41,030 bases of DNA from a virus, in IMG/VR virus record IMGVR_UViG_3300045790_000809, positions 1-41,030 of that record. One strand, 5' to 3'. The notes under the pieces were generated by a model. The model ran no database searches. It saw only the letters and a program-made list of their open reading frames with translations, and was not told where the DNA came from. The position numbers and the translations under genes are program-made. Positions 5,466 through 41,030 of this stretch are shown here, one piece after another (position 1 is the stretch's first letter; each line of letters starts with the position of its first letter).

Positions 5466-5987
5466 ATGCTGATGAAAACAGACTCTCTAGGAATACCCCG
5501 ATTTACAAATAAAGACTTAGTTGATATGATCTATTCAGGTCATGTTGACAAGTGTCATGTTGTATTATGTGAACCTAGTGATGATATATCCAAGTTTAAT
5601 AAAGCTATGGAAGATCAAGGCAGACCTGCACTTACTCCATATATTCCACTAGATGTAGAACAAAAAGACTTTGACACAGCGTTACAGTCGGAATGGTTTA
5701 TGCCTGACGAATATAAAGAACTGGATGTAGTACGTTTTTTAAACAATAGAGAACTTACTTACGAACAAAGAGACCGTATTCGTGAAGAACTACACGCATT
5801 TACTGAGCGTGGTATGTTACCACTATTACGTTATATGTGCTATCTTGTAGACTTTATGCGCGAGAATGATATTGTTTGGGGAGTAGGTAGAGGTAGTAGT
5901 GTATCAAGTTATGTACTATATTTAATTGGGGTTCACAAAATTGATTCAATCCAGTATGACCTGGACTGGACCGAGTTCCTGAGATAA
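5466..5987 (+). CDS. DnaE-like (DNA polymerase III alpha) fragment protein without the catalytic palm
   Basis: A 173-residue protein. Its last 36 residues (VGRGSSVSSYVLYLIGVHKID then YDLDWTEFLR, about 139-173) match the region of bacterial DnaE that reads GPGRGSxxGSLVAYxLGITDIDPLxYxLLFERFLNPER. The gene stops precisely where DnaE would continue into its palm domain, so the Mg-binding aspartates (PDID) are absent; no continuation is visible after the stop. Residues 100-130 (EELHAFTERGMLPLLRYMCYLVDF) also resemble the helical segment before that motif. It therefore cannot polymerise DNA, and may instead bind DNA, the host polymerase or the clamp; that is inference. Length and clean ends argue for a stable domain rather than a decaying pseudogene. 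Confidence 0.6.
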   Translation: MLMKTDSLGIPRFTNKDLVDMIYSGHVDKCHVVLCEPSDDISKFNKAMEDQGRPALTPYIPLDVEQKDFDTALQSEWFMPDEYKELDVVRFLNNRELTYEQRDRIREELHAFTERGMLPLLRYMCYLVDFMRENDIVWGVGRGSSVSSYVLYLIGVHKIDSIQYDLDWTEFLR

Positions 5988-29308: not shown

Positions 29309-29641
29309 ATGCGAGTAACTATTAATGATATTGGTGGAACAGTTGCAAAAGAAGACGAACGGTATGTTGTTAAAGATAACCCACTTCTTAACAACCTAGT
29401 AGTAAGTAGCACACGACTGCAACCACGCAAAGCAACATCAGGACACAGTCATCCAGGCCAAGAAGAAGTATATTACTTTATTGAAGGTATTGGTAAAATG
29501 GAACTTGGTAACGATACAATTAAAGTACAACCAGGAGATGTTGTACTAATTGAAGATGGAGTATTCCATCGTGTACATGCAGGCATGTACGAAGAAATGT
29601 ATTTTGTATGTGTGTTTGATGGTAAGAGGAATCACAAATGA
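29309..29641 (+). CDS. Cupin-domain protein
   Basis: A 110-residue single-domain cupin. Motif 1 is SGHSHPGQEEVYYFIEGIG with H46, H48 and E52/E53; motif 2 is PGDVVLIEDGVFHRV with H87. These residues bind a metal in cupins such as sugar epimerases, isomerases and dioxygenases. Adjacent genes handle nucleotide-activated sugars (cytidylyltransferase-like, phosphomannomutase-like, NDP-sugar dehydrogenase-like), so a sugar isomerase or binding role is plausible. It overlaps the next gene by 4 nt. Confidence 0.75.
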   Translation: MRVTINDIGGTVAKEDERYVVKDNPLLNNLVVSSTRLQPRKATSGHSHPGQEEVYYFIEGIGKMELGNDTIKVQPGDVVLIEDGVFHRVHAGMYEEMYFVCVFDGKRNHK

Positions 29642-30042
29642 AAGTAGGATTTACAGCATCTACGTTTGATTTACTTCACGCAGGCCATGTACTAATGTTA
29701 CGTGAAGCAAAGGAACAGTGCGATCATTTAATTGTGGGGTTACAAGTTGACCCTACTGTAGATAGGAAAGAAAAGAACGCTCCTATACAAACTATTGTCG
29801 AACGTTACGCACAACTTAAAGCAGTTGGGTATGTTGATGAAATTATCCCGTACGGTACAGAACATGACTTGGAAGATATTTTAGAAATGTATCCAATTGA
29901 TGTACGAATACTAGGCGAAGAATATAGAGACAAGGACTTTACAGGTAAAGATATATGTCATAAGCGTTCAATTAAACTGCACTTTAATAAACGCGATCAC
30001 CGTTTTAGTACAAGTGATCTTAGAAGGAGAATAAATGAATAA
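29638..30042 (+). CDS. Cytidylyltransferase-like enzyme, TagD/GCT type
   Basis: A 134-residue nucleotidyltransferase of the size of glycerol-3-phosphate cytidylyltransferase (about 130). It carries FDLLHAGHVLML with the HxGH motif (H14-H17) and RFSTSDLRRR (122-131) in the place of RTxGISTT. It would join a nucleotide (CMP or AMP) to a phosphorylated alcohol or sugar with release of pyrophosphate. Candidate substrates are glycerol-3-P, ethanolamine-P or a heptose-1-P. It is coupled to the cupin upstream (ATGA) and overlaps metK by 8 nt. Confidence 0.75.
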   Translation: MKVGFTASTFDLLHAGHVLMLREAKEQCDHLIVGLQVDPTVDRKEKNAPIQTIVERYAQLKAVGYVDEIIPYGTEHDLEDILEMYPIDVRILGEEYRDKDFTGKDICHKRSIKLHFNKRDHRFSTSDLRRRINE

Positions 30043-31126
30043 TCATATTTTTACAAGCGAATCAGTAAGTGACGGACACCCAGATAAGGTAGCAGATCAA
30101 ATATCTGATGCGCTTGTTGATGCTGGATTAGCCGCTGGCGATACAACAACACGAGTAGCAGTTGAAACACTAGTAACTACCAACATGGTTACACTTGCAG
30201 GCGAAGTTAAGAACTTTAATGTAACTAGAGCAGCCGTAGAACACATTGTACGCAACAAAGTTAAAGAGATTGGCTACGAACAAGAAGGGTTTCATTGGAA
30301 TAAGTTAAAAGTCTATAATGAAATACATGAACAGAGTGCAGACATTGCACTAGGTACAGACGACTTTGGTGCAGGTGATCAAGGACTTATGTTTGGTTAT
30401 GCTTGCAATCATACACCAAGTATGATGCCTGCGCCTATTCATTACAGTCACAAGATACTAGAAAATTTAAAAACAAAGCGCGGAAATGTATTAGGACCTG
30501 ATGCTAAATCACAAGTAAGTGTAGAGTACAATGGTGCAAGACGTGAAGGTGTTATCAAACGCATTGATCAAATTGTAGTTAGTACACAACACACAGAAGG
30601 CTGTATAGAAGAAGCAAGACATTTGTGTAAACTTGCGGCAATGGAAGAACTAGGAGACTTAATTGATAGCGATACTGTATGGCATCTTAATCCTACTGGC
30701 AATTTTGTTATTGGTGGTCCTGATGGTGACACCGGACTTACTGGGAGAAAGATTATTGTCGATACTTATGGGGGGTTTGCTCCTCATGGGGGCGGTGCTT
30801 TTAGTGGCAAAGATCCTACTAAAGTAGATCGTAGTGCGGCTTATATGGCAAGATGGCTTGCTAAGAACGTAGTAGCAGATGAAATGGCAGACTGGTGTAA
30901 TATACAACTAAGCTATGCTATTGGAGTTAAGCAACCTACTAGCATTTACGTTGATTCAAACGGACACAATCGCAGTATTGAAAGTTTTATTCGTAACGAG
31001 ATAGATTTAAGTCCAAAAGGAATCATTGACAGATTTGATTTATTCAACTATAATAGTTATAGCAACAATTGTACTTACGGACACTTTGGTGATAAAAACG
31101 TTCCTTGGGAACAAGTAGGGTGGTAA
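30035..31126 (+). CDS. metK: S-adenosylmethionine synthetase MetK
   Basis: A 363-residue enzyme, slightly shorter than the bacterial 384, apparently complete. It begins FTSESVSDGHPDKVADQISD (H15, D17, K18 bind ATP/Mg), has FGAGDQGLMFGYA, GPDAKSQVSV, STQHTEG, INPTG-like LNPTGNFVIGGPDGD, TGRKIIVDTYGG, and GGGAFSGKDPTKVDRSAAY with the phosphate-binding Lys and Asp residues. It ends YGHFGDKNVPWEQ. It makes SAM from methionine and ATP. SAM could feed methyltransferases or a radical SAM enzyme (QueE candidate at the right edge). The start overlaps the cytidylyltransferase gene by 8 nt with AAGGAG upstream. Confidence 0.95.
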   Translation: MNNHIFTSESVSDGHPDKVADQISDALVDAGLAAGDTTTRVAVETLVTTNMVTLAGEVKNFNVTRAAVEHIVRNKVKEIGYEQEGFHWNKLKVYNEIHEQSADIALGTDDFGAGDQGLMFGYACNHTPSMMPAPIHYSHKILENLKTKRGNVLGPDAKSQVSVEYNGARREGVIKRIDQIVVSTQHTEGCIEEARHLCKLAAMEELGDLIDSDTVWHLNPTGNFVIGGPDGDTGLTGRKIIVDTYGGFAPHGGGAFSGKDPTKVDRSAAYMARWLAKNVVADEMADWCNIQLSYAIGVKQPTSIYVDSNGHNRSIESFIRNEIDLSPKGIIDRFDLFNYNSYSNNCTYGHFGDKNVPWEQVGW

Positions 31127-31836
31127 TGAGTAAAAATATATTTATATTTGATGTAGATGGCACACTAACCCCTAGTCGCGGACGAATGAACAAACACTTT
31201 GCTGTATGGTTCAGTCATTTCTGCGACAAGCATACAGTACATTTAGTTACAGGAAGTGACCGGCCAAAGACAATTGAACAAATAGGTGAATACATATACT
31301 TTAAATGTAAAAGTGTTTACCAATGTAGCGGTAATGAAGTTTGGTCTGAAGGTCGTATAACTGGTTCAAGCGAATGGACATTACCGCATGATGCACACGA
31401 ATGGTTAAGTGTAAAACTTACTGAGAGTAATTTTGGCATACGCACTGGTAACCATTTTGAACACCGTACTGGCATGGTTAACTTTAGTATTGTAGGACGC
31501 AATGCTGATAGACAACAACGTGCCGCATATGTAATTTCTGAACAACAAATAAGCGAGCGTGAAATTATAGCAACACAATTTAATTTATTATTTCCTAACT
31601 TACAAGCAACAGTAGGCGGAGAAACTGGCATTGATATTGCACCGCGTGGGTCTGATAAAAGTCAAATATTGCGAGATTTTAATGAAAGTGACTCTATACA
31701 TTTTTATGGTGATGCAATGCATGATAACGGCAATGATTATCCTTTAGCACATTCATTATTAAAAATGCAACTAGGATTTTCTCACCCAGTTACTGGATGG
31801 CAAGATACTTGGGAACAACTAAAGGAGATTACATGA
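31126..31836 (+). CDS. Phosphomannomutase-like HAD protein
   Basis: A 236-residue HAD (type IIB) protein starting at ATG 31126, overlapping the metK stop (TAATG). It matches eukaryotic-type phosphomannomutase: FDVDGTLTPSRGRM with D9 and D11, HLVTGSDRPKTIEQIG, YQCSGNEVW (PMM: ENG), and FYGDAMHDNGNDYPLA (PMM: FGDKTxxGGNDxEI). It would interconvert hexose-6-phosphate and hexose-1-phosphate, or act as a sugar phosphatase. Cupin, nucleotidyltransferase and sugar dehydrogenase neighbours support a nucleotide-sugar route. It overlaps the next gene by 4 nt (ATGA). Confidence 0.7.
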   Translation: MSKNIFIFDVDGTLTPSRGRMNKHFAVWFSHFCDKHTVHLVTGSDRPKTIEQIGEYIYFKCKSVYQCSGNEVWSEGRITGSSEWTLPHDAHEWLSVKLTESNFGIRTGNHFEHRTGMVNFSIVGRNADRQQRAAYVISEQQISEREIIATQFNLLFPNLQATVGGETGIDIAPRGSDKSQILRDFNESDSIHFYGDAMHDNGNDYPLAHSLLKMQLGFSHPVTGWQDTWEQLKEIT

Positions 31837-32612
31837 GAATAGTAGTAACTGGTTACGGGTTTGTTGGTCAAGCGTTCGAACGAGCAGTACGCGATACAAA
31901 CGAAGTTAGTATCAATGACCCCGATAAAGGTTATTATTCTGATCATCACGATTACAAATATGCAAATGCTCTTGTAGTTTGTGTTAGTACTCCACAAAAC
32001 GAAAATGGTTCATGTAATATGAACAACGTGTACAATGTAATTGAAAAAGCTCCAGACATTCCTATTCTAATAAAAAGTACTATTAGCTTAGAAGGATGGC
32101 AGATGCTAAAAGATACATTTCCTAATAAACAAATGTGTTTCAGTCCAGAATTTTTACGTGCAGAAACTGCTAACGAAGATTTTAGGAATATGAAGTATAC
32201 TATAATAGCTGGTGAACAAAAAGATACAGAGTTTTGGAATACTTGGTTTAAATCACAAGTATGTTGGTCTAACTTAGAGATCCACAACTGTACAGTGCCA
32301 GAAGCAATTACAATTAAGTACGCAGAGAACAGTTTTCTTGCACTTAAAGTAAGTTTCTTTAATCAACTATCTGACTTTTGCGAGTTAGCTAATTTAGACT
32401 TTGAAACTGTGCGCAGACTACTATGCACAGATCAACGAATAAATGACGACCATAGTATGGTTACAGAAGAAAGAGGTTGGGGCGGTCATTGCTTTCCCAA
32501 GGATACATCTGCTTTCCTAAAAACAGCAGAGCAGTACGGTTACGACCTAAATATACTACGAAGCGCAGTAGAATATAATAAAACAATTAGAAAAACTGTT
32601 GACAATCAATAG
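31833..32612 (+). CDS. UDP-glucose/GDP-mannose dehydrogenase-like protein lacking C-terminal domain
   Basis: A 259-residue protein starting at ATG 31833 (AAGGAGATT upstream). The N-terminus has the NAD-binding GYGFVG (7-12); the middle has FSPEFLRAETA and AITIKYAENSFLALKVSFFNQ with the conserved Lys and Asn; GWGGHCFPKDT (about 215-225) holds the catalytic Cys C220. Full-length family members have about 400 residues; the C-terminal UDP-binding domain is missing here, yet the catalytic residues are intact and the stop is clean. It may oxidise an NDP-sugar with relaxed nucleotide binding or act on another substrate. It ends just inside the gp45 promoter. Confidence 0.75.
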   Translation: MRIVVTGYGFVGQAFERAVRDTNEVSINDPDKGYYSDHHDYKYANALVVCVSTPQNENGSCNMNNVYNVIEKAPDIPILIKSTISLEGWQMLKDTFPNKQMCFSPEFLRAETANEDFRNMKYTIIAGEQKDTEFWNTWFKSQVCWSNLEIHNCTVPEAITIKYAENSFLALKVSFFNQLSDFCELANLDFETVRRLLCTDQRINDDHSMVTEERGWGGHCFPKDTSAFLKTAEQYGYDLNILRSAVEYNKTIRKTVDNQ

Positions 32613-32627: not shown

Positions 32628-32648
32628 ATAAAGAGAATGGAGATATAC

Positions 32649-33380
32649 ATGAAAGACATATTACAAGACGTAGTAGCACATACACACTCACTAGGCTTTC
32701 TTAGTCTAGTAAAAGTTACAAGCGAGAGTGACACAACAACAATCGAAAGTATGGCAGAAGATAGGAGTGTTATCTTATCTGCAACTACACATTCGCCTGT
32801 TGGTGAGTTTGAAGGCACGTTTGGCATGCCTAACTTAGATAAGCTGGCATTGCACTTAAAGAATCCAGAGTATCAGAAAGGTGCTAAACTTGAGGTAGTT
32901 AAAGCAGAACGTAACGGTGAAACTATTCCGACACACATTCACTTTGAAAATGCATCAGGTGACTTTGAAAACGATTATCGCTTTATGAACAAAGCAATTA
33001 TTGACGAGAAGTTGAAGACTGTTAAGTTTAAAGGTGCGGCATGGAATGTTACGTTCCAACCTAGCATGGCAGCTATTGCACGTATGAAGTTGCAAAGTGC
33101 GGCACACTCAGAAGAGCCTACATTTAATGTAAAAACTGACAACGAAGACCTAGTGTTTAGTTTTGGTGATGCAAGTACACACGCAGGTAATTTTGTATTC
33201 CAGCCACAAGTTGGCGGAACACTAACACATACATGGAGTTGGCCTGTAGCACAAGTACAAAGTGTACTTAACTTGAGTGGCGATATTACTATGAGCATTA
33301 GTGACCAAGGTGCAATGAAGATCTGTGTAGACAGTGGCTTAGGCACATACGACTACATCCTTCCAGCACAGAGCAAGTAA
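32649..33380 (+). CDS. 45: Sliding clamp, T4 gp45 type
   Basis: A 243-residue beta-rich protein of the size of T4 gp45 (228). Start ATG 32649 is chosen over 32637 because GGAGAT lies within the 12 nt between them as ribosome-binding site. Clamp features include MPNLDKLALHLKNPEY (subdomain linker region), repeated beta strands such as LVFSFGDA and TMSISDQGAMKI, and a C-terminus ending DYILPAQSK. It should form a trimeric ring that tethers gp43 and, in T4, also activates late transcription through gp33/gp55. It lies two bases before the transglycosylase gene. Confidence 0.8.
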   Translation: MKDILQDVVAHTHSLGFLSLVKVTSESDTTTIESMAEDRSVILSATTHSPVGEFEGTFGMPNLDKLALHLKNPEYQKGAKLEVVKAERNGETIPTHIHFENASGDFENDYRFMNKAIIDEKLKTVKFKGAAWNVTFQPSMAAIARMKLQSAAHSEEPTFNVKTDNEDLVFSFGDASTHAGNFVFQPQVGGTLTHTWSWPVAQVQSVLNLSGDITMSISDQGAMKICVDSGLGTYDYILPAQSK

Positions 33381-33382
33381 AC

Positions 33383-35011
33383 ATGAATAAAGACCTAACA
33401 GAAGCACAAGAAGATTACGCACACTTTTTACCCGCACTAAGTGGCTTTTACGCAACCTATGTAGGTAAGCAACGTTATCCTGATCCTGTTAAAGGTCTTT
33501 ATGTTGACGATGCACGTATGCCTAACAACTTTGCAAACGGTATGGAAAGTCTTAACTATCTCAATGAAAAAGAAGGAGCGTTCACATACAAGTGGACGCT
33601 TTACTCTGCAGGACATGCTGAATTAGACACTAATAAGTTTAGTCCTAAAGAAGATATGATCCGTAATAGAGATAGAGAAAACACCTGGGCACTTGGTGAC
33701 TCAGGTGGTTTCCAAATTGGTAAAGGTGTTTGGGAAGGTGACTGGAAAGATCCTAATTGTCCTAAAGCACAAAAGAAGCGCGATGGTGTTTTACGTTGGA
33801 TGGATGCATACATGGACTATGGTATGATACTTGATATTCCAGCGTGGGTTGCACGTTCACCTGCAGGTGCAAAAGCTACAGGCATTAGCACATATCAAGA
33901 AGCAGTAGTAGCAACACGCATTAATAATGACTATTGGATGAAGCACAGAACAGGTGCTTGTAAGTTCCTTAATGTATTGCAAGGCGAGAATCATGCTGAC
34001 GCAGAAGATTGGTATCAACAGATGAAAGATTACTGTGATCCAGTTAAGTATCCTGACAATCACTTTAATGGTTGGTCAATGGGTGGACAGAACATGTGCG
34101 ATGTGCATTTGGTTCTTAAACGCATTGTTGCATTGCACTATGACGGACTACTACAAAGCGGTATACACGATGTAATGCACTTCTTAGGCACAAGTAAACT
34201 AGAGTGGGCCTGCTTGCTAACAGACGTACAACGGGCTATACGCAAGTACTACAACCCTACTATGATGCTTACATTTGATTGTGCAAGTCCGTTCTTAGCT
34301 ACTGCTAATGGACAGATTTACATTCAGAACGAAACACCTGATAGAGGTAAGTGGACTTACCGAATGGTGCCTAGTGTAGACGAACTGAAGTATGCAAGTG
34401 ATACACGTGGTTTTAAAGATGCAGTATTACAAGACGGTATATTTAAGAACTTTGAGGATAGTCCACTAACTGACGGATTGCTTATTAACGATGTATGTAC
34501 ATACGCTGTTGGTGATACTAACAAGATTGGTACTATTAAAGTACTTAAAGGTGATGTTGACTTAGACAAAGCAGGTAATCCTTTGCTAGACGCAGATGGT
34601 AACACAACTGTACGTGGCAGGGACTCAACAAGCTGGGATAGCTTTAGTTATGCTATACAGATGGGTCATAACGTATGGAGTCATATTAATGCTGTACAAG
34701 AAGCTAATAGACAGTACGATGCCGGTGTTATACCTAAAATGCTTGTAGATGAAAAGTTTGATCGTATTCTATTTAGAGATGTTGTTGAAGAGATTTTCTC
34801 AAAGACAACACAAGAAGAATCCATGGATGTTATTGATAGTTATTCAAAGTTTTGGATGTCTATCCCAGGTACACGTGGTGCAATTGGTAAGAAGACTGTA
34901 AACAGTTCTACTTACTTTGGTGCATTGTTTGATGTAGAGGAGCCTGATGATAATGTCGAAGAAACTTTAGATGAAACTAAATTGGAGGTACTCGAAGGTG
35001 GAGAACTATAG
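33383..35011 (+). CDS. TGT/DpdA-like transglycosylase (candidate 7-deazaguanine DNA modification enzyme)
   Basis: A 542-residue protein with the signatures of tRNA-guanine transglycosylases in order: GDSGGFQIGKG (D106), LDIPAW (D151), LNVLQGEN (about 196-203), WSMGGQN (231-237), HFLGTSKLEW (266-) and LTFDCASPF (D299, the nucleophile region; TGT has FDCVxPTR). TGT enzymes swap guanine for a 7-deazaguanine; the phage relative DpdA does this in DNA. The protein is longer than TGT (about 375), and the usual C-terminal CxCxxC zinc site is not seen, which argues against an ordinary tRNA enzyme. A QueD-like gene follows at 35792 and a probable queE starts at 40993. The next gene overlaps by 14 nt. 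Confidence 0.75.
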   Translation: MNKDLTEAQEDYAHFLPALSGFYATYVGKQRYPDPVKGLYVDDARMPNNFANGMESLNYLNEKEGAFTYKWTLYSAGHAELDTNKFSPKEDMIRNRDRENTWALGDSGGFQIGKGVWEGDWKDPNCPKAQKKRDGVLRWMDAYMDYGMILDIPAWVARSPAGAKATGISTYQEAVVATRINNDYWMKHRTGACKFLNVLQGENHADAEDWYQQMKDYCDPVKYPDNHFNGWSMGGQNMCDVHLVLKRIVALHYDGLLQSGIHDVMHFLGTSKLEWACLLTDVQRAIRKYYNPTMMLTFDCASPFLATANGQIYIQNETPDRGKWTYRMVPSVDELKYASDTRGFKDAVLQDGIFKNFEDSPLTDGLLINDVCTYAVGDTNKIGTIKVLKGDVDLDKAGNPLLDADGNTTVRGRDSTSWDSFSYAIQMGHNVWSHINAVQEANRQYDAGVIPKMLVDEKFDRILFRDVVEEIFSKTTQEESMDVIDSYSKFWMSIPGTRGAIGKKTVNSSTYFGALFDVEEPDDNVEETLDETKLEVLEGGEL

Positions 35012-35207
35012 CGAAGCACATGACGTAATTATTGCACACTTACAAGAGCTGTATATTAGACATCGTGCATTAGATACCGAAGCAACTGAACTACATGAAA
35101 ATTTTGCATCTGATCAACAAGTTAATAGAGTAAAAACTCAGAAGCTATGGATTAAAGATGAAATCCATAGATATGAAACTGAATTAAAGGCATTAGGAAA
35201 ATTATGA
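34998..35207 (+). CDS. Small helical protein, unknown function
   Basis: A 69-residue protein. GTG 34998 is chosen as start because GGAGG (34984-34988) lies 9 nt before it; an ATG at 34971 in the same frame lacks such a site and would overlap the upstream gene by 41 nt. The sequence is charged and helical, with SEAHDVIIAHLQELYIRHRAL and KDEIHRYETELKAL, likely coiled coil. It overlaps the transglycosylase by 14 nt and the next gene by 4 nt, so it may be a partner of one of them. Confidence 0.55.
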   Translation: MENYSEAHDVIIAHLQELYIRHRALDTEATELHENFASDQQVNRVKTQKLWIKDEIHRYETELKALGKL

Positions 35208-35725
35208 AAAGAACATACGACACAGGCGAAGCAAAGGACATTGTCTTCTTTACAGGCGTAGAAGTTGAAAAGACTCCTGCATTTGGAATGAAGACATTGT
35301 TTGTTACTGGTGTGCAAGATTACTATGCGATTAGGCAAAAATACATTAGTGAAGAATGTACACATATCTTCTTTGGTGCTAATCACAGTTACAATCCAGT
35401 TAACTATGAAGACTTTAATCAATGGGATGCATTGATTACTCTTTTCTTAAAAGACGACATTTTATGTAGCTTAGATATTCCAAGCACAATTGACCTAGAA
35501 TCGTTCTTAGACGGCGGGCTTACTGAATACAATAACTTTATTCCGCAAATTCGTGTAGTTATTCCTTACATTAAACAGTGGGGATACAATGCAATGGTTA
35601 AAATTGACGACAAAGGGTTTAACGCATCTAATCCAGGCGTTTGGTGCCATAGCTTACATGATTTAATGGACCGTGATAAATTTACGGATTGGAGCAAATA
35701 CGGACTTGACAAAGTCCTAAAGTGA
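35204..35725 (+). CDS. Conserved T4-like marine phage protein, unknown function
   Basis: A 173-residue protein whose start MKRTYDTGEAKDIVFFTGVE and segments FGMKTLFVTGVQD, THIFFGANHSYNP and NASNPGVWCHSLHDLM are, from memory, highly conserved among T4-like cyano- and related phages, where it has no settled function. It alternates beta strands and helices and has no membrane segment. It sits between the transglycosylase and the QueD-like gene, so a link to base modification should be considered. The next promoter lies within its last codons. Confidence 0.55.
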   Translation: MKRTYDTGEAKDIVFFTGVEVEKTPAFGMKTLFVTGVQDYYAIRQKYISEECTHIFFGANHSYNPVNYEDFNQWDALITLFLKDDILCSLDIPSTIDLESFLDGGLTEYNNFIPQIRVVIPYIKQWGYNAMVKIDDKGFNASNPGVWCHSLHDLMDRDKFTDWSKYGLDKVLK

Positions 35726-35734
35726 AAGTATACT
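35706..35734 (+). promoter_or_regulatory. sigma70-like promoter TTGACA-N17-TATACT
   Basis: TTGACA 35706-35711 and TATACT 35729-35734, 17-nt spacer, inside the end of the 35204 gene. A hairpin GGACTT-GACA-AAGTCC (35702-35717) covers the -35. Seven bases after the -10 is 35741, the A of an in-frame ATG upstream of the SD-led start at 35792. Confidence 0.65.
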
Positions 35735-35791
35735 AGTAATATGCAAGAACGTTATTATGACTACATGTTACGTAGAATGAAGGAAAACAGA

Positions 35792-36175
35792 ATGACACAA
35801 CCAGCAAGTAAAAGTATTTGGGTTACCTTTCAAAAAGAAGGTGTACATATGTACCCGGGTGCAGACACTGACCCTAAACTAGCAACAGGTGGGTGGGATG
35901 ATGTATCATTCCTAGGTGTTCCGCATCGCCACATGTTCCATTTTAAAATTCGCATTGAAGTGTTTCACGATGATCGCGATATTGAATTCATTCAGTTTAA
36001 ACGCTGGATTGAACGGTTGTATGCACAAGATGTAATACAACTAAACCACAAGTCATGCGAGATGATTGCAGATGACTTGTACGAAGAAATTTCCGCAAAG
36101 TACCCAAGCCGCTTTGTAGAGATTGATGTCGCCGAAGATGGCGAAAATGGCTGTTCAAATTACTACCCTGCATAA
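35792..36175 (+). CDS. QueD-like (6-carboxytetrahydropterin synthase fold) protein
   Basis: A 127-residue protein from ATG 35792 (AAGGA at 35780-35784); an in-frame ATG at 35741 would add 17 residues and coincides with a leaderless +1. Residues 44-57 read PHRHMFHFKIRIEV, placing H45 and H47 (with H50) as in the zinc HxH motif of QueD/6-pyruvoyl-tetrahydropterin synthase (HGHxYxxxV). Later, CEMIADDLYEEISAKYP stands for the PTxExIAxxI helix, and VAEDGENG for the C-terminal Glu strand. The catalytic Cys and the LDH..LN motif are not obvious (LNHKSC is the nearest), so it may have lost or altered activity. Neighbouring TGT/DpdA-like and queE genes support the reading. Confidence 0.5.
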   Translation: MTQPASKSIWVTFQKEGVHMYPGADTDPKLATGGWDDVSFLGVPHRHMFHFKIRIEVFHDDRDIEFIQFKRWIERLYAQDVIQLNHKSCEMIADDLYEEISAKYPSRFVEIDVAEDGENGCSNYYPA

Positions 36176-36210
36176 GGGTGGTGAGTCAAACCAAACCCAG
36201 CTCAAAGCTG
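36176..36210 (+). other. Two tandem hairpins in an intergenic leader
   Basis: GGGTGGT (36176-36182) can pair with ACC-AA-ACCC (36190-36198) with a two-base bulge and 7-nt loop; CAGCT (36198-36202) pairs with AGCTG (36206-36210) around a 3-nt loop. Together they fill most of the 55-nt gap before ATG 36231, whose site AAGGAA is at 36217-36222. No U-run follows. Could be an RNA control element; unidentified. Confidence 0.35.
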
Positions 36211-36230
36211 TTAATAAGGAAATCTAAAAG

Positions 36231-36428
36231 ATGGGAATCGAATATAATCGGAATGCGTACAATAAAGTGTTCAACGATTTAGATAAGTTTCGTGACTACT
36301 GCCGTTTTGAAGGTAAAGTCTTTAATGAAAAAGATATGTATAATGATAAGGCACCAGTATGGATTGCCTATAATAAGTATCAAGGATGGGTCCGTGCAAT
36401 GGCCCGGAAGAACGCAAGGAGCAACTAA
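36231..36428 (+). CDS. Small conserved phage protein, unknown function
   Basis: A 65-residue basic, aromatic protein (YNRNAYNKVFNDLDKFRDYC, VWIAYNKYQGWVRAMARKNA). AAGGAAA precedes the ATG. The stop overlaps the glycosyltransferase ATG by one base (TAATG), so both are made together. No motif known to me. It has a single Cys and no membrane segment. Confidence 0.55.
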   Translation: MGIEYNRNAYNKVFNDLDKFRDYCRFEGKVFNEKDMYNDKAPVWIAYNKYQGWVRAMARKNARSN

Positions 36429-37486
36429 TGACTATTCATATTGTAGATATCGAAGCTGTTGATACACGTTACACTGCACAGTGGAAGGAGTATCTTCCTA
36501 AACAATTACGACATGCTACAAATGAAAAAGTTAATGTTATTAGTGGTGGAGAGACTCCTCAGGCAACTACGCCTGGGGCGTTTCTTAACTTTGGTGGTAC
36601 TAACGTATACAAAAGTAAACAACTAGAAACTATCGGCGAGATGTTCTGTAATGGACAAGTCAAAGACGGGGACTATTTCTTATACACAGACGCTTGGAAC
36701 CCTACTGTTATACAATTAAAGTATATGGCAGAGTTACTAAACGTCGACATTACTATTGGTGGCTTATGGCATGCTGGTAGTTATGATCCGCAAGACTTTT
36801 TAGGCAGACTTATAGGCGATAAGCCTTGGGTACGTCACGCTGAAATGTCAATGTATGAATGTTATGATGACAACTTCTTTGCAAGTGAATTCCATATTGA
36901 TTTATTTACAGATACAATGATGGATAGTTATAATGTTGATATGGATAAAGCAATTAGAGTCGGATGGCCTATGGAGTATCTTAAGGATAGCCTAACGCAA
37001 TATAAAGGCATGGAGAAGCGAGACTTAATCTTGTTCCCACATCGTGTTGCTCCTGAGAAGCAAGTTGAGATCTTTAGAGATCTAGCACAACTGCTTCCAC
37101 AATATGACTTTGTTGTTTGTCAAGATCAAGAACTTACAAAGAACGAATATCACAACTTGCTAGGCGAAGCTAAGATGGTGTTTAGTGCTAACTTACAAGA
37201 AACACTTGGCATTAGTTGGTATGAAGGTGCATTAGTAGATGCTATTCCTATGATACCTGATAGACTAAGCTACAGTGAAATGGGGTTAGACGTATTTAAA
37301 TACCCAAGTGAGTGGACTGAGGACTATGACGCATACTTGCATAATAGAGACAAAGTAGTTGCACAAATTGTAGAGTACATGGAAAACTACGATGACTTCC
37401 TTCCTAATATTAATAAACAAGTTACTAAACTTAACAAAGAGTTTTTTAGCGGTAAACAGTTATACGAGGCAATTAACGGTGAATAA
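36428..37486 (+). CDS. Glycosyltransferase, GT-B fold (group 1/GT4-like)
   Basis: A 352-residue protein starting at ATG 36428 (overlap TAATG). The C-terminal half carries the GT-B pattern: LILFPHRVAPEKQVEIFRDL, DFVVCQDQELTKNEYH, then SANLQETLGISWYEGA and LVDAIPMIPDRLSY, equivalent to the ExxGxxxxEAxxxGxPVI motif that binds the nucleotide-sugar. The N-terminal half binds the acceptor (LYTDAWNPTVIQLKYMAELL). It could glycosylate modified DNA bases, as T4 glucosyltransferases do, or cell-surface or virion targets. It lies within the 7-deazaguanine-type gene neighbourhood and downstream of NDP-sugar genes. Confidence 0.7.
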   Translation: MTIHIVDIEAVDTRYTAQWKEYLPKQLRHATNEKVNVISGGETPQATTPGAFLNFGGTNVYKSKQLETIGEMFCNGQVKDGDYFLYTDAWNPTVIQLKYMAELLNVDITIGGLWHAGSYDPQDFLGRLIGDKPWVRHAEMSMYECYDDNFFASEFHIDLFTDTMMDSYNVDMDKAIRVGWPMEYLKDSLTQYKGMEKRDLILFPHRVAPEKQVEIFRDLAQLLPQYDFVVCQDQELTKNEYHNLLGEAKMVFSANLQETLGISWYEGALVDAIPMIPDRLSYSEMGLDVFKYPSEWTEDYDAYLHNRDKVVAQIVEYMENYDDFLPNINKQVTKLNKEFFSGKQLYEAINGE

Positions 37487-37808
37487 TCAAATAGAATATC
37501 AATACGAATTAGATCTAACTGGCGGCACGAATACAGATACTATTACTATTGATCTTAGTAACTATCCAAGTACTAGTACTAGTACAATAGATACTACTTT
37601 TAGTAACTATACAATAACAGGTACTAACGGTAGTCCAATAACAATTAATAGTGATATTAATATTGTTACAGGTCCCGAAGCATATCTTAAAGTAACTGAA
37701 ATAGAAGAAATGTGCAACGATTATCCTGCACTAAATATCGCGTATAGCACTTTTAAATCGATGTACGACTTAGTATTACAAGACTATAAAGGTAAAAAAA
37801 ATGTTTAA
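37479..37808 (+). CDS. Conserved T4-like marine phage protein, unknown function
   Basis: A 109-residue protein. GTG 37479 is chosen because GAGG (37466-37469) precedes it and it overlaps the glycosyltransferase stop by 8 nt. The first 70 residues are Thr/Ser-rich beta (TDTITIDLSNYPSTSTST), and the C-terminal 40 are helical: ALNIAYSTFKSMYDLVLQDY, a motif I recall from many T4-like cyanophage proteins (ending DYKGK). Function unknown, possibly structural. The 3' end overlaps the small lipoprotein gene by 8 nt. Confidence 0.55.
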   Translation: MNNQIEYQYELDLTGGTNTDTITIDLSNYPSTSTSTIDTTFSNYTITGTNGSPITINSDINIVTGPEAYLKVTEIEEMCNDYPALNIAYSTFKSMYDLVLQDYKGKKNV

Positions 37809-37953
37809 TATTAGTTTTATACTTGTACTATTATTGCTTACTGGGTGTTCAACAACAGCGGCAATAGTAGATGTAACTGCAACAACTGCAATATATGCAG
37901 GCAAGACAGTTGTAAACACCGTAGACTTAATAACCCCTGATATAATTAACTAA
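37801..37953 (+). CDS. 50-residue lipoprotein
   Basis: ATG 37801 opens a 50-residue frame ending TAA 37951-37953. The first 15 residues form a short signal peptide (MFNISFILVLLLLTG) with lipobox LTGC, C16 as the lipidated residue. The mature part is only 34 residues and Thr/Ala/Val-rich. It resembles phage-encoded small outer-membrane lipoproteins used in superinfection exclusion or as o-spanins, but no i-spanin partner lies nearby. AAAGG lies upstream within the preceding gene. Confidence 0.6.
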   Translation: MFNISFILVLLLLTGCSTTAAIVDVTATTAIYAGKTVVNTVDLITPDIIN

Positions 37954-37962
37954 GGACTAACT

Positions 37963-38481
37963 ATGATTAAGAAACATTATTACAACTGGACTGACATTGA
38001 ACGCATGTGCGTAAGCATTGTTAATCAAATGTACACTGACAACTGGCGTCCTGATTACATTGTAGGACTTACACGCGGCGGCAATGTACCTGCTACTATT
38101 ATTAGTAACATGACTGGCATTCGTTGTGAAACACTTAAAGTAAGTTTGCGTGACGATGAACAAGGTCCCGAAAGTAATCTTTGGATGGGCGAAGATGCAT
38201 TTGGTTATGAAAAACAACCAAAGAACATCCTTATTGTAGATGATATCAACGATACTGGTGCAACCTTTAACTGGATTAAGGAAGACTGGCCAACAGGCTG
38301 TATGCCAATGGAGCATGATCGATGGAATGCAGTATGGGGTAACAACGTTCGCTTTGCTACACTAACAGACAATAGTGCAAGTAATGCCGAAGTTCCAGTT
38401 AGTTATACTTGCCACGAAATTAACAAAGCAGAAGAAGATGTATGGCTTGTTTATCCTTGGGAGAATGTAAGTGAGTATTAA
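37963..38481 (+). CDS. Phosphoribosyltransferase-domain protein
   Basis: A 172-residue protein with the type I PRTase signature ILIVDDINDTGAT (89-101), the PRPP-binding loop, and YIVGLTRGGNVPATII (33-48), the loop that precedes it in hypoxanthine/xanthine-type enzymes. It could salvage a purine base or 7-deazapurine by joining it to PRPP. The closeness to the TGT/DpdA-like and QueD-like genes makes a deazapurine substrate worth testing, but this is inference. AAGGAC precedes the ATG. It overlaps the next gene by 11 nt. Confidence 0.75.
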   Translation: MIKKHYYNWTDIERMCVSIVNQMYTDNWRPDYIVGLTRGGNVPATIISNMTGIRCETLKVSLRDDEQGPESNLWMGEDAFGYEKQPKNILIVDDINDTGATFNWIKEDWPTGCMPMEHDRWNAVWGNNVRFATLTDNSASNAEVPVSYTCHEINKAEEDVWLVYPWENVSEY

Positions 38482-39082
38482 ATTGGATAGAATGGATTTA
38501 TTTCCAGTGCCAGTATTTGGTGGAGAGTTTGGTGGTGCTGAAGAACTAAGAAAAGCACTGCTTCCTGAATTAAAGGCTATCGAAAGTAATGACACTAATC
38601 CTAGAGGATATAGTGCGAATGGATATACTAACTATAATCCAACTGGCGAAATTATTGATAACCCAATGTTAGTTGACTTACGTGAGTTTATTGTAGAATC
38701 AGTAATCCAAGCAAATAATACAATTGGCTTAAAGAACAATGTAATTTTTTCCGGAAGTTGGTTTAGTATTAATAGAATGTACAGTACACATCTACCGCAT
38801 AATCACATTCCAAGTACTTGGAGCGGTGTGTACTATGTACAAGCAACTGATGAAGATGCTCCACTTACATTCATTGACAAGAATAAAGAGTGCAGTTGGC
38901 CCTGGGCAAACAATAAAGAAATGACGGTATACTCTACTCCGCATTTTAGTATTACACCCAAGACCGGACGTTTAATTATATTTCCGGCATACTTAACACA
39001 CATGGTAGATGAACAAAAAGTAGATGCAGAACGTATTGCAATTAGCTTTAACATGTCTTCATTGGAGAATACAAATGACTAA
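38471..39082 (+). CDS. Putative 2OG-Fe(II) oxygenase
   Basis: A 203-residue protein with a GTG start at 38471 (GGGAGA upstream). It begins IKLDRMDLFPVPVFGG, and has HLPHNHIPSTWSGVYYV (H110, H112), then GRLIIFPAYLTHMV (H177) and RIAISFNM. This is the arrangement of the putative 2OG-Fe(II) oxygenase family common in T4-like marine phages, with HxH/D and distal His for iron and Arg for 2-oxoglutarate. The substrate is unknown; DNA base, protein or metabolite are possible. It overlaps the HIT-like gene by 8 nt. Confidence 0.75.
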   Translation: MSIKLDRMDLFPVPVFGGEFGGAEELRKALLPELKAIESNDTNPRGYSANGYTNYNPTGEIIDNPMLVDLREFIVESVIQANNTIGLKNNVIFSGSWFSINRMYSTHLPHNHIPSTWSGVYYVQATDEDAPLTFIDKNKECSWPWANNKEMTVYSTPHFSITPKTGRLIIFPAYLTHMVDEQKVDAERIAISFNMSSLENTND

Positions 39083-39446
39083 ACCTTGGACCGATGTACT
39101 AATTGAAACAAAGGACTACACAGTTTACAAAGACGGCTTTCCGGTAACAGAAGGTCATGTGTTGTTTGTTCCTAGAGAAGAAAACTGGAAAGGGCTAACT
39201 AAGTGTATGGAAGCCGCATACAAATGGGGCCATGACTGGATGACACGCGGATACTGTGATGCATTTAACATTGGACAAAATGTAGGCGAAGCCGCTGGTC
39301 AAACTGTAATGTATCCACATATTCATTTAATACCTCGTCGTAATGGCGATATGGAAGATCCTCGTGGCGGGGTAAGACACGTCATACCAAGCAAAGGCAA
39401 TTATCGTAAAGATGACGCAGAGCCTCAAAAAGGAAAAGGACTATGA
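39075..39446 (+). CDS. HIT-family nucleotide hydrolase with variant His triad
   Basis: A 123-residue protein starting at ATG 39075 (GGAGAATA upstream). The HIT motif reads QTVMYPHIHLIPRR: family members have HxHxH, here Y80-P-H82-I-H84, so the first His is replaced by Tyr while the catalytic middle His (H82) and the last His remain. The following DPRGGVRHVIPSKGNY is typical of Ap4A-type and related hydrolases. It would cleave dinucleoside polyphosphates or AMP conjugates. The start overlaps the oxygenase gene; it overlaps the next gene by 4 nt. Confidence 0.75.
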   Translation: MTKPWTDVLIETKDYTVYKDGFPVTEGHVLFVPREENWKGLTKCMEAAYKWGHDWMTRGYCDAFNIGQNVGEAAGQTVMYPHIHLIPRRNGDMEDPRGGVRHVIPSKGNYRKDDAEPQKGKGL

Positions 39447-39649
39447 ACTTGAAAGAACAATTAGTAAAAGCGGCACGTATGCATGCCGAAGGAGAGCTTG
39501 AAAGAGCAAAGACTAACATTATGGTGTATATGAATAATGCAACTGGTATCGGAGAGCATAGCGATATTGTCGAAGCCATTCAAGAAGAACTTGACAAAAT
39601 GGCTCATGCAGAAGATCGTATTGAAATGTTGGTGAAATATTTTGGGTAG
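39443..39649 (+). CDS. Conserved small helical phage protein
   Basis: A 68-residue helical protein. The pattern MNLKEQLVKAARMHAEGEL, VYMNNATGIGEHSDIVEAIQ and EELDKMAHAEDRIEMLVKYF matches a small protein conserved across T4-like cyanophages, function unknown. It overlaps the HIT-like gene by 4 nt (ATGA) and the next gene by 8 nt, so its expression is coupled. Confidence 0.65.
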   Translation: MNLKEQLVKAARMHAEGELERAKTNIMVYMNNATGIGEHSDIVEAIQEELDKMAHAEDRIEMLVKYFG

Positions 39650-40463
39650 GACACTTTTTATAGGTGATAGCCATACATGCGGATACGATACTATTCCAGG
39701 AAAAACTGGGCCTGACAGTTATAAAGTATGGCAAGACAATAACTATGCTGAAATTTACGGGGAAGTACACAACAAGAATGTTATAGTGTATGCTATGCCC
39801 GGAAGTAATAACCGATCTTATTCAGACTGGTTAGGTAGTATGTTTAAAAAGTATGACGATATTGACGAAGTAATTGTGTTGCTAAGTAGTCTTAATAGAT
39901 TTATGTTAGCGCACAATGAAAAGTTATTATCTGATACAGTGCCAATTGATCAGTTTACTACACAACAAGGACAATCTGATAATGGACTAAGTCATAGATA
40001 CTTAGATTCCATTATTTCAGGCGACTACTTTCAGTTGTACCAAAAGCCAATTGACGAAGACTATAATAAGTTTCCTGGTATTGCATTTAGTTATGAAAGC
40101 GGATTAACAGAGCCTAATATACGAGAATCTACGTATATGGAAATTAAAACGTTCTTTGAACTTAACACACACTTAGAACAACGTGACTTTTTTAAAGACG
40201 TGTACACATGGGATAACATGTGTGCAGATCGAAACATACCAATTTACTTGTTTAAAATGCGAGACAGGGTGCAATTTCCAAAAGAGATTGACTTTTACGG
40301 CAAACTAAAAGCAACTACAATGAGCGATGTAAGTGTAGAAACGTTCTTTAGGAATAAACATATTGATCACACTGCGTACTATACTAGTGATCAAGAACAT
40401 TATACTAAACAGTATCATTCATTAATTGCAACAAAATTTTTAAAACACTTAACAAGGACCTAA
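39642..40463 (+). CDS. SGNH/GDSL-like protein (second copy of fold)
   Basis: A 273-residue protein with TTG start at 39642, chosen because it puts LFIGDSHTCG (GDSH, S10) at the N-terminus; a GGTGA site precedes it. YAMPGSNNRSYSDWL offers the block II Gly and Asn; VLLSSLNRFM may be block III. Near the end, SDQEHYTKQYHSLIA holds the His likely to be catalytic (DxxHY). It differs from the 25625 gene in length and sequence but shares the fold signature. The substrate may be an acylated or glycosylated cell-surface component. Confidence 0.5.
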   Translation: MGRTLFIGDSHTCGYDTIPGKTGPDSYKVWQDNNYAEIYGEVHNKNVIVYAMPGSNNRSYSDWLGSMFKKYDDIDEVIVLLSSLNRFMLAHNEKLLSDTVPIDQFTTQQGQSDNGLSHRYLDSIISGDYFQLYQKPIDEDYNKFPGIAFSYESGLTEPNIRESTYMEIKTFFELNTHLEQRDFFKDVYTWDNMCADRNIPIYLFKMRDRVQFPKEIDFYGKLKATTMSDVSVETFFRNKHIDHTAYYTSDQEHYTKQYHSLIATKFLKHLTRT

Positions 40464-40468
40464 ATAAC

Positions 40469-40942
40469 GTGGAACAACATGCTAAGTTAGATAAGTGGAT
40501 TAAAAACTGGGCCGATGAAATTGATGCAAATAAAAAATGTCCTTACGCTAAACCTACTGTTAATAGCAACAAACTAAAAACAGTTATGTTAGATAGTATT
40601 AACGTTTACGAGTTTTGGGCAACTATACACAAAGAAGCAGATAAGTTTGACGATGCACACGATGTCGTTATAGTTGCTATGGAAGCTGACGAAAATGTAA
40701 TGAATATACAACAATTACAAGGCGGATGTTATAGTATTAATGCCGGTCACAACAGTAGAAATACTGATTTATGGTGCTTAAACCTTCACAATCAGTTCTA
40801 TTTTATGGTACTACTGCAACGGTTATCGGCTCTAGATGATGCTAGTAGAGCATTCGAAAAGAAAGATTACTATGATGATCATGAAGTTTTTGCTATAAAA
40901 GACATCTTAAATAGAAGAGCATTAAGAGAAAATTTAAGTTGA
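40469..40942 (+). CDS. Conserved phage protein, unknown function
   Basis: A 157-residue protein starting at GTG 40469 with AAGGA upstream. The N-terminal half has WIKNWADEIDANKKCPYAK, in which CPYA recalls redox- or metal-linked families, but I cannot assign one. The centre alternates strands (DVVIVAMEADENVM) and an aromatic segment LHNQFYFMVLLQRL. No membrane span. It ends within the -35 of the next promoter. Confidence 0.5.
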   Translation: MEQHAKLDKWIKNWADEIDANKKCPYAKPTVNSNKLKTVMLDSINVYEFWATIHKEADKFDDAHDVVIVAMEADENVMNIQQLQGGCYSINAGHNSRNTDLWCLNLHNQFYFMVLLQRLSALDDASRAFEKKDYYDDHEVFAIKDILNRRALRENLS

Positions 40943-40967
40943 CAATAACCTAAATAGAATGTATAAT
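40939..40967 (+). promoter_or_regulatory. sigma70-like promoter TTGACA-N17-TATAAT
   Basis: TTGACA 40939-40944 and TATAAT 40962-40967, 17-nt spacer, exact consensus, before the gene that begins at 40993. The leader holds TAAGGAAC as ribosome-binding site. Confidence 0.75.
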
Positions 40968-40992
40968 TAATTAACAATCATAAGGAACAACT

Positions 40993-41030
40993 ATGAAACT
41001 AAGATATTCAGAAGCATTCTATAGTGTACA
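40993..41030 (+). CDS. Start of a probable QueE-like radical SAM enzyme (3' end outside window)
   Basis: Only 12 residues are visible: MKLRYSEAFYSV, followed by CA. QueE (7-carboxy-7-deazaguanine synthase) begins with a pattern like xxxSEIFYSIQGEG, so the fit is good and the next codon CA(A/G) would give the Gln of QGEG. The gene has its own consensus promoter. Together with the QueD-like (35792) and TGT/DpdA-like (33383) genes this points to a 7-deazaguanine pathway. With so few residues the call stays tentative. Confidence 0.45.
   Translation, partial: MKLRYSEAFYSV

Follow-up and report, generated by a model that had tools for sequence, protein, structure and literature searches.

The 41,030-base virus record IMGVR_UViG_3300045790_000809, which we analyzed in full and refer to as the window, carries a locus that is likely to be a DNA 7-deazaguanine modification module in which a paralogue of QueD stands in place of QueC and the modified base is not preQ0. 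The locus encodes a candidate DNA guanine transglycosylase, the QueD paralogue, and the start of a putative QueE (7-carboxy-7-deazaguanine synthase). Relatives of the transglycosylase are encoded by at least 600 IMG/VR contigs (all of the candidates among the matches listed were relatives), and the module genes are present in all 25 of the loci that reach at least 9.5 kb past the start of the transglycosylase gene (hereafter, long loci), which confirms that the locus is conserved beyond chance. A first-pass annotation of this DNA had implied a pathway leading to a preQ0-type base. The features that it described, namely an open reading frame (ORF) of 542 residues with two sequence motifs, an ORF with an HxH block, and a gene start at 40993, are all present.

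A QueD Paralogue Probably in Place of QueC

The ORF at 35741–36175 (+ strand) encodes a protein of 144 residues that contains an HRHxFHF block, and its conserved part begins near 35777. It had originally been placed at 35792–36175; the histidine block is indeed there, but 35792 is a later, internal start. An AlphaFold2 model of the protein (predicted local distance difference test score [pLDDT] 81) has the T-fold order bbaabb, and its top Foldseek hits in the PDB were PTPS/QueD structures (probability 1.00), with a template modeling score of about 0.62 to E. coli QueD. Although the window protein had no match to PF01242 (QueD), comparison of the profile of its family with that of phage QueD gave E = 3.6e-5. 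The family shares with QueD (6-carboxytetrahydropterin synthase) a C-terminal Glu region and three invariant histidines (His24, His50, and His52) that match the zinc ligands. However, an invariant leucine (Leu46) occupies the position of the catalytic cysteine of QueD (in CxxxHxH), and the Asp-His (DH) block of QueD falls in a gap of the profile alignment.

A canonical QueD is encoded separately by relatives G001, G007, and G010, by all eight of the isolate carriers first examined (the match in Ahp1 being weak), and, near the paralogue, by contigs L132–L134 from metagenome-assembled genomes (MAGs). The paralogue therefore cannot simply be the QueD of the phage, and we rejected this part of the original assignment, of which the QueD fold stands. 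Its residues and its modeled structure together identify the 144-residue protein as a paralogue of QueD, distinct from QueD itself. In Vibrio phage Bakedbeans (L116:5215-6366) and Chryseobacterium phage MA9V-3 (L118:5398-6279), the paralogue forms the C-terminal domain of longer proteins.

QueC scored above the cut-off in 1 of 11 carriers of the paralogue versus 10 of 10 other phages with 7-deazaguanine genes (Fisher p = 3e-5, a value that overstates the certainty, as several of the phages are related and their lineages are not fully independent). The noncarriers were taken from the hit lists for queE and the glycosyltransferase and from known DpdA phages, regardless of QueC. Campylobacter phage NCTC12673 was excluded from this comparison, as the search for queE in it gave no match. 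The only carrier with a QueC match is Vibrio phage D479, and that match is partial. Because QueC is so nearly excluded, the paralogue probably handles 7-carboxy-7-deazaguanine (CDG) in its place. The simplest reading is that CDG is taken to something other than preQ0, and the most likely reaction would be decarboxylation to 7-deazaguanine. Canonical QueC and QueF are both missing from the relatives (QueF was absent from the 16 records searched and was rejected as a part of the module), and the preQ0-type base implied by the first-pass annotation is probably wrong.

A Divergent DpdA-Like Transglycosylase

The ORF at 33383–35011 (+ strand) encodes a protein of 542 residues, with DSGGFQ at residues 106–111 and FDCASPF at residues 298–304. 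Both motifs are invariant in an alignment of 45 relatives, as are LDIPAW, LQGE, SMGG, and HFLG, so that the catalytic residues of the tRNA-guanine transglycosylases (TGTs) are retained throughout (D106, D151, Q200-G201, G234-G235, and D299). The CxCxxC...H zinc motif of tRNA-type TGTs is not among the invariant residues of these 45 sequences. The protein had no family match in Pfam, PHROGs, NCBIfam, or PADLOC and no PDB match by sequence profile. PF01702 (TGT) had no match in the window or in 17 related records, and this model also misses the known DpdA phages 9g and nt-1.

A profile built from 81 members of the family aligned in hhalign with a DpdA2 profile (from phages nt-1, ACP17, BUCT-ZZ01, and X1) with E = 6.7e-7 over 188 columns, at about 20% identity. 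The alignment paired DSGGFQ with DSGGLQ, LDIP with FDEIP, HFLG with HxLG, and FDCASP with YDSTTH, and it also paired a QG turn and a GG segment. The two families are linked only by profile-profile comparison, as the family profile searched against the DpdA2 sequence of nt-1 gave E = 0.089 at best. E. coli Tgt alone gave E = 0.0024, and E = 3.1e-6 when DpdA2 was added to the profile. In the comparison with Tgt alone, FDCVMPTRNARNG pairs with FDCASPFLATANG, the catalytic region is in register over its C-terminal half, and around the nucleophile the two align position for position (FDCASPFLATANGQIY versus FDCVMPTRNARNGHLF). DpdA1 of phage 9g showed no detectable similarity (hhalign E = 0.22), and Campylobacter phage NCTC12673, tried as a reference for DpdA3, was rejected because it yielded neither a transglycosylase family match nor a queE.

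The strongest functional evidence comes from gene linkage in Vibrio phage 2.275.O, where genes for QueF, YhhQ, QueC, FolE, and QueE all lie within the 8 kb after the gene for the homologue. On the basis of these comparisons, the 542-residue protein is a divergent DpdA-type (DNA) transglycosylase that represents a new subfamily related to DpdA2, which bears out the TGT/DpdA-type assignment first proposed for it. Its relatives, its similarity to DpdA, and its gene neighborhood point to DNA as the target.

A QueE with a Split Cluster Motif

The gene that starts at 40993 (+ strand) is cut by the end of the window, which holds 12 of its residues (40993–41030; MKLRYSEAFYSV). In relatives, MKLRYSEAFYSV continues into a QGEG motif. 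One relative, L007, has the same gene order as the window, including the genes for an oxygenase and for proteins of 273 and 157 residues, and there the locus continues into a gene for a QueE of 298 residues with QGEG. Because this relative continues into QueE, we identify the gene at the edge, from its sequence and context, as queE, as had been supposed. The relatives carry the QGEG and GGEP motifs of QueE, and they match the QueE models TIGR03365, TIGR03963, and TIGR04322 with best E values per protein of 4e-10 to 3e-17, below the curated cut-offs.

The first-pass annotation had also anticipated a CxxxCxxC cluster. This is not found as such, because the third cysteine has been displaced by an insertion: the cluster is split as CxxxC-x(38-50)-C in 30 of 31 QueE sequences (for example, L014:17569-18462 and L094:12001-12876), the remaining one being incomplete. 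Matches to QueE hidden Markov models break at this insertion between the second and third cysteines but are present on both sides of it. We know of no description of CxxxC-x(~40-50)-C spacing as a radical S-adenosylmethionine (SAM) motif. A similar split occurs in the QueE of nt-1, KVP40, PA5oct, 2.275.O, X1, Moby, GR11A, Pori-4, and NCTB, and such spacing is seen in the QueE of many T4-like or jumbo phages; the spacing is normal in 9g, ACP17, Phosso, and MA9V-3. The split-motif QueE is probably active, because nt-1, which has this form, carries 7-deazaguanines in its DNA (PMC6884629), although a host QueE could contribute in nt-1.

The Conserved Module and Its Neighbors

Besides the transglycosylase, all 25 long loci encode the 144-residue paralogue, QueE, a 173-residue protein, a DUF465-domain protein, a glycosyltransferase, and a phosphoribosyltransferase. 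A folE gene, which the earlier annotation had suggested looking for, is present in 24 of these loci and, in a separate search, in 14 of 16 records; none was found within the stretch of L007 examined. Among isolate phages, the 542-residue family occurs in 13 of 50,697 records (11 PA5oct-like Pseudomonas phage records, Sinorhizobium phage Phosso, and Vibrio phage 2.275.O), and nothing further came up when the PA5oct and 2.275.O proteins were themselves used to search viral sequences. The order in PA5oct is clamp, transglycosylase, glycosyltransferase, paralogue, phosphoribosyltransferase, queE, exonuclease. In nine contigs from the GTDB genome collection, the neighbor of the paralogue is in every case a DpdA of one of three types; the glycosyltransferase is found with DpdA2 and with the type described here, and not beside the third (D3) type.

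Directly upstream of the transglycosylase gene, at 32637–33380 (+ strand), is a gene for a sliding-clamp-like protein of 247 residues (phrog_12062), which has this position beside the transglycosylase in 76 of 81 loci and also in PA5oct and 2.275.O. Its identity as a clamp rests on annotation (the Phosso homologue is annotated as a DNA polymerase III sliding clamp), and the family had no meaningful PDB profile hit; this neighbor suggests, but falls short of proving, action on replicating DNA. Phosso also has a short gene annotated as DnaE-like near the transglycosylase. In the window, a 173-residue ORF at 5466–5987 resembles, by eye, a piece of the palm of DnaE polymerase (GVGRGSSVSSYVLYLIGV), despite the fact that the phage encodes a family B polymerase.

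Downstream of the transglycosylase lie the genes for the DUF465-domain protein (34971–35207, + strand; 78 residues; PF04325, E = 1.9e-9) and for the 173-residue protein (35204–35725, + strand). The family of the latter has a conserved KIDDxxFxxxNPGVW block, with no family match and no meaningful PDB hit, and among the 50,697 phage records it is found only in PA5oct-like phages and ACP17, both of which have 7-deazaguanine genes. The glycosyltransferase (36428–37486, + strand; 352 residues) is assigned to the GT-B fold (GT4 type): 4 of 19 members of its family match PF00534 (Glycos_transf_1; best E value 8e-12), and the window member alone does not. It is rare in isolates (19 of 50,697 records), and all of its occurrences, which include PA5oct, Phosso, ACP17, X1, and BUCT-ZZ01, are in lineages with 7-deazaguanine genes. 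The phosphoribosyltransferase (37963–38481, + strand; 172 residues) is of xanthine/guanine type (PF00156, E = 2.2e-9; NCBIfam xanthine phosphoribosyltransferase, 2.5e-13, below the model cut-off), and in BUCT-ZZ01 its gene adjoins queE. These two transferases, which had been noted as possible accessory enzymes together with an oxygenase, are thus constant members. In contrast, the 2-oxoglutarate-Fe(II) oxygenase (38471–39082, + strand; 203 residues; PF13759, E = 2.4e-19) was rejected as a part of the module, because it occurs in only one other locus (L007). A HIT-domain protein (39072–39446, + strand; PF01230, E = 7.8e-11) is a frequent neighbor, present in 20 of the 25 long loci.

Upstream of the module, the region 29309–32612 contains cupin, cytidylyltransferase-like, PMM-type phosphatase, and UDP-sugar dehydrogenase-like genes, which could be sugar-nucleotide genes serving the glycosyltransferase. 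At 30035–31126 lies a complete SAM synthetase gene, in which each of the three Pfam domains is present; such a gene is unusual for a phage, and its product could supply the SAM-using QueE.

Proposed Pathway and Alternatives

In the pathway that we propose, FolE (encoded elsewhere in the phage or provided by the host), a canonical QueD (encoded elsewhere), and the QueE at 40993 would convert GTP to CDG. The zinc-type paralogue would then take over CDG at the point where QueC normally works, and its most likely effect would be to remove or alter the carboxyl group; the DpdA-like transglycosylase would exchange the resulting base for guanine in phage DNA; by analogy with TGT, Asp299 would be the nucleophile and Asp106 would belong to the base pocket. 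The phosphoribosyltransferase may recycle the guanine freed by base exchange, returning it to GMP, and the GT-B enzyme would probably act on the installed or free base. The predicted base is a preQ0-independent 7-deazaguanine (carboxy, decarboxylated, or glycosylated), and the expected benefit would be resistance to host restriction enzymes.

Several points weigh against this pathway. We found no chemical measurement for any phage of the 542-residue transglycosylase family, and only ~0.1% of guanines are modified in nt-1. The sequence of the paralogue contains no feature that shows a decarboxylation step, and the 41-kb window contains neither folE nor a canonical queD. The AlphaFold model of the transglycosylase is poor (pLDDT 58.5); its top five Foldseek PDB hits are TGTs, but with probabilities of only 0.2–0.5 on this low-confidence model. 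Finally, about half of the large relatives encode, at sites unlinked to the locus, a divergent protein of the PP-loop type whose zinc tail resembles that of QueC (TRSCE...CxxCxxCKER; L108–L115), and this protein could act as QueC and provide a QueC-like route. As a linked QueC it was rejected, since it lies away from the locus and most of the isolate carriers lack it.

A glycosylated 7-deazaguanine as the end product in DNA would be a further step compatible with the proposed pathway, and we regard it as a serious possibility that nonetheless falls somewhat short of probable. The constancy of the GT-B gene in the long loci is in its favor, as is the distribution of its homologues, which neighbor either DpdA2 or the paralogue in ACP17, X1, and BUCT-ZZ01 and occur also in Phosso and PA5oct. 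In Xanthomonas phage PhiXhv-16 (L122:1789-5023), a distant homologue lies two genes after a QueC-domain ORF, with a sugar-deacetylase-like gene between them, a neighborhood that hints at a sugar-modified 7-deazaguanine; the QueC-domain ORF is annotated as a glucosamine-phosphate aminotransferase. On the other hand, nothing in the analysis identifies the acceptor group, the D3-type DpdA lacks the glycosyltransferase as a neighbor, and the sugar genes upstream of the module could serve, for example, cell-surface glycans. The complete scheme, in which a glycosylated, preQ0-independent 7-deazaguanine arises in DNA through FolE, QueD, and QueE, a paralogue that replaces QueC, a new subfamily of DpdA associated with a clamp-like protein, and the GT-B enzyme, is one that we put forward tentatively.

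It is unlikely that the 144-residue protein is a working QueD and that preQ0, made with host QueC or with the divergent PP-loop protein as QueC, gives rise to dPreQ0 or dADG in the DNA. Such a pathway would be consistent with the QueD fold and the three conserved zinc-type histidines, hosts often have QueC, and roughly half of the relatives encode the PP-loop protein with its QueC-like tail. Yet the protein lacks the catalytic cysteine and the Asp-His block, a canonical QueD accompanies it in the isolates as well as in three relatives and the MAG contigs, and QueC is missing far more often in carriers of the paralogue than in noncarriers; moreover, the PP-loop protein is unlinked and, apart from a weak hit in X1, absent from the isolate carriers.

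Membership of the 542-residue protein in the TGT superfamily, and the fact that FolE and QueE also serve tRNA queuosine, would fit an enzyme that modifies tRNA in a queuosine-type pathway and so aids translation, leaving DNA untouched. We consider this very improbable, as the protein fails PF01702 and lacks the CxCxxC zinc motif of the tRNA enzymes, is closest to the DpdA2 of a phage with modified DNA (nt-1), and is linked to a clamp-like gene, and as the window contains no tRNA genes. Equally doubtful is entry of the base as a modified dGTP made by the phosphoribosyltransferase and used by the polymerase, with some other role for the transglycosylase-like protein: the phosphoribosyltransferase is constant, and a dGTP route had at one time been put forward for Campylobacter phages (PMC6884629), but the transglycosylase motifs are fully conserved, the conserved neighbors of the clade include no nucleotide kinase, and the occurrence of three DpdA types beside the same paralogue fits postreplicative exchange.

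Comparison with Known Systems

The proposed QueC-independent pathway can be set against several related systems. The DpdA2 system of nt-1, whose DNA carries dPreQ0, dADG, and dG+ (PMC6884629), has the same order of motifs in its transglycosylase and likewise includes FolE and a split-motif QueE. However, the protein described here is longer and only distantly similar over the columns aligned, and nt-1 has QueC and ArcS and no QueD paralogue, whereas the clade described here is without canonical QueC. Vibrio phage 2.275.O shares the transglycosylase family, the clamp-like neighbor, FolE, and the split-motif QueE, but it has QueC, QueF, and YhhQ and no paralogue, and for this reason it probably makes preQ1-type bases. 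The locus of PA5oct and Paride has nearly the gene order of the window module and no QueC; it differs in that its transglycosylase is 33% identical and its 173-residue gene lies elsewhere in the genome. The PA5oct/Paride record labels queE, alone among the module genes, as belonging to 7-deazaguanine synthesis. Cui et al. (NAR 2023) reportedly predicted that DpdL is a 7-carboxy-7-deazaguanine decarboxylase. As so described, DpdL resembles the paralogue in that a step from CDG to 7-deazaguanine without QueC is proposed for it, a step that agrees with the near-exclusion of QueC among the carriers. The phage described here also has glycosyltransferase and phosphoribosyltransferase genes. The module differs from the known versions in that the usual nitrile-making step is missing and a QueD look-alike and a sugar-transferase gene are added.

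We conclude that this marine phage very probably uses the conserved gene set to produce a 7-deaza form of guanine and to exchange it into its own DNA. The module is widespread and mostly unannotated in marine phages, as judged from the number of viral contigs that carry the transglycosylase, and it is also present in cultured jumbo phages of P. aeruginosa such as PA5oct and Paride. As cultured carriers exist, its chemistry is testable at once by mass spectrometry on laboratory phages. It brings to light a candidate QueC replacement, a transglycosylase subfamily that is new, and a radical-SAM enzyme whose cluster motif is split. The sugar-bearing bases of phage DNA known so far are mostly pyrimidines, and the module may add a glycosylated purine to them.

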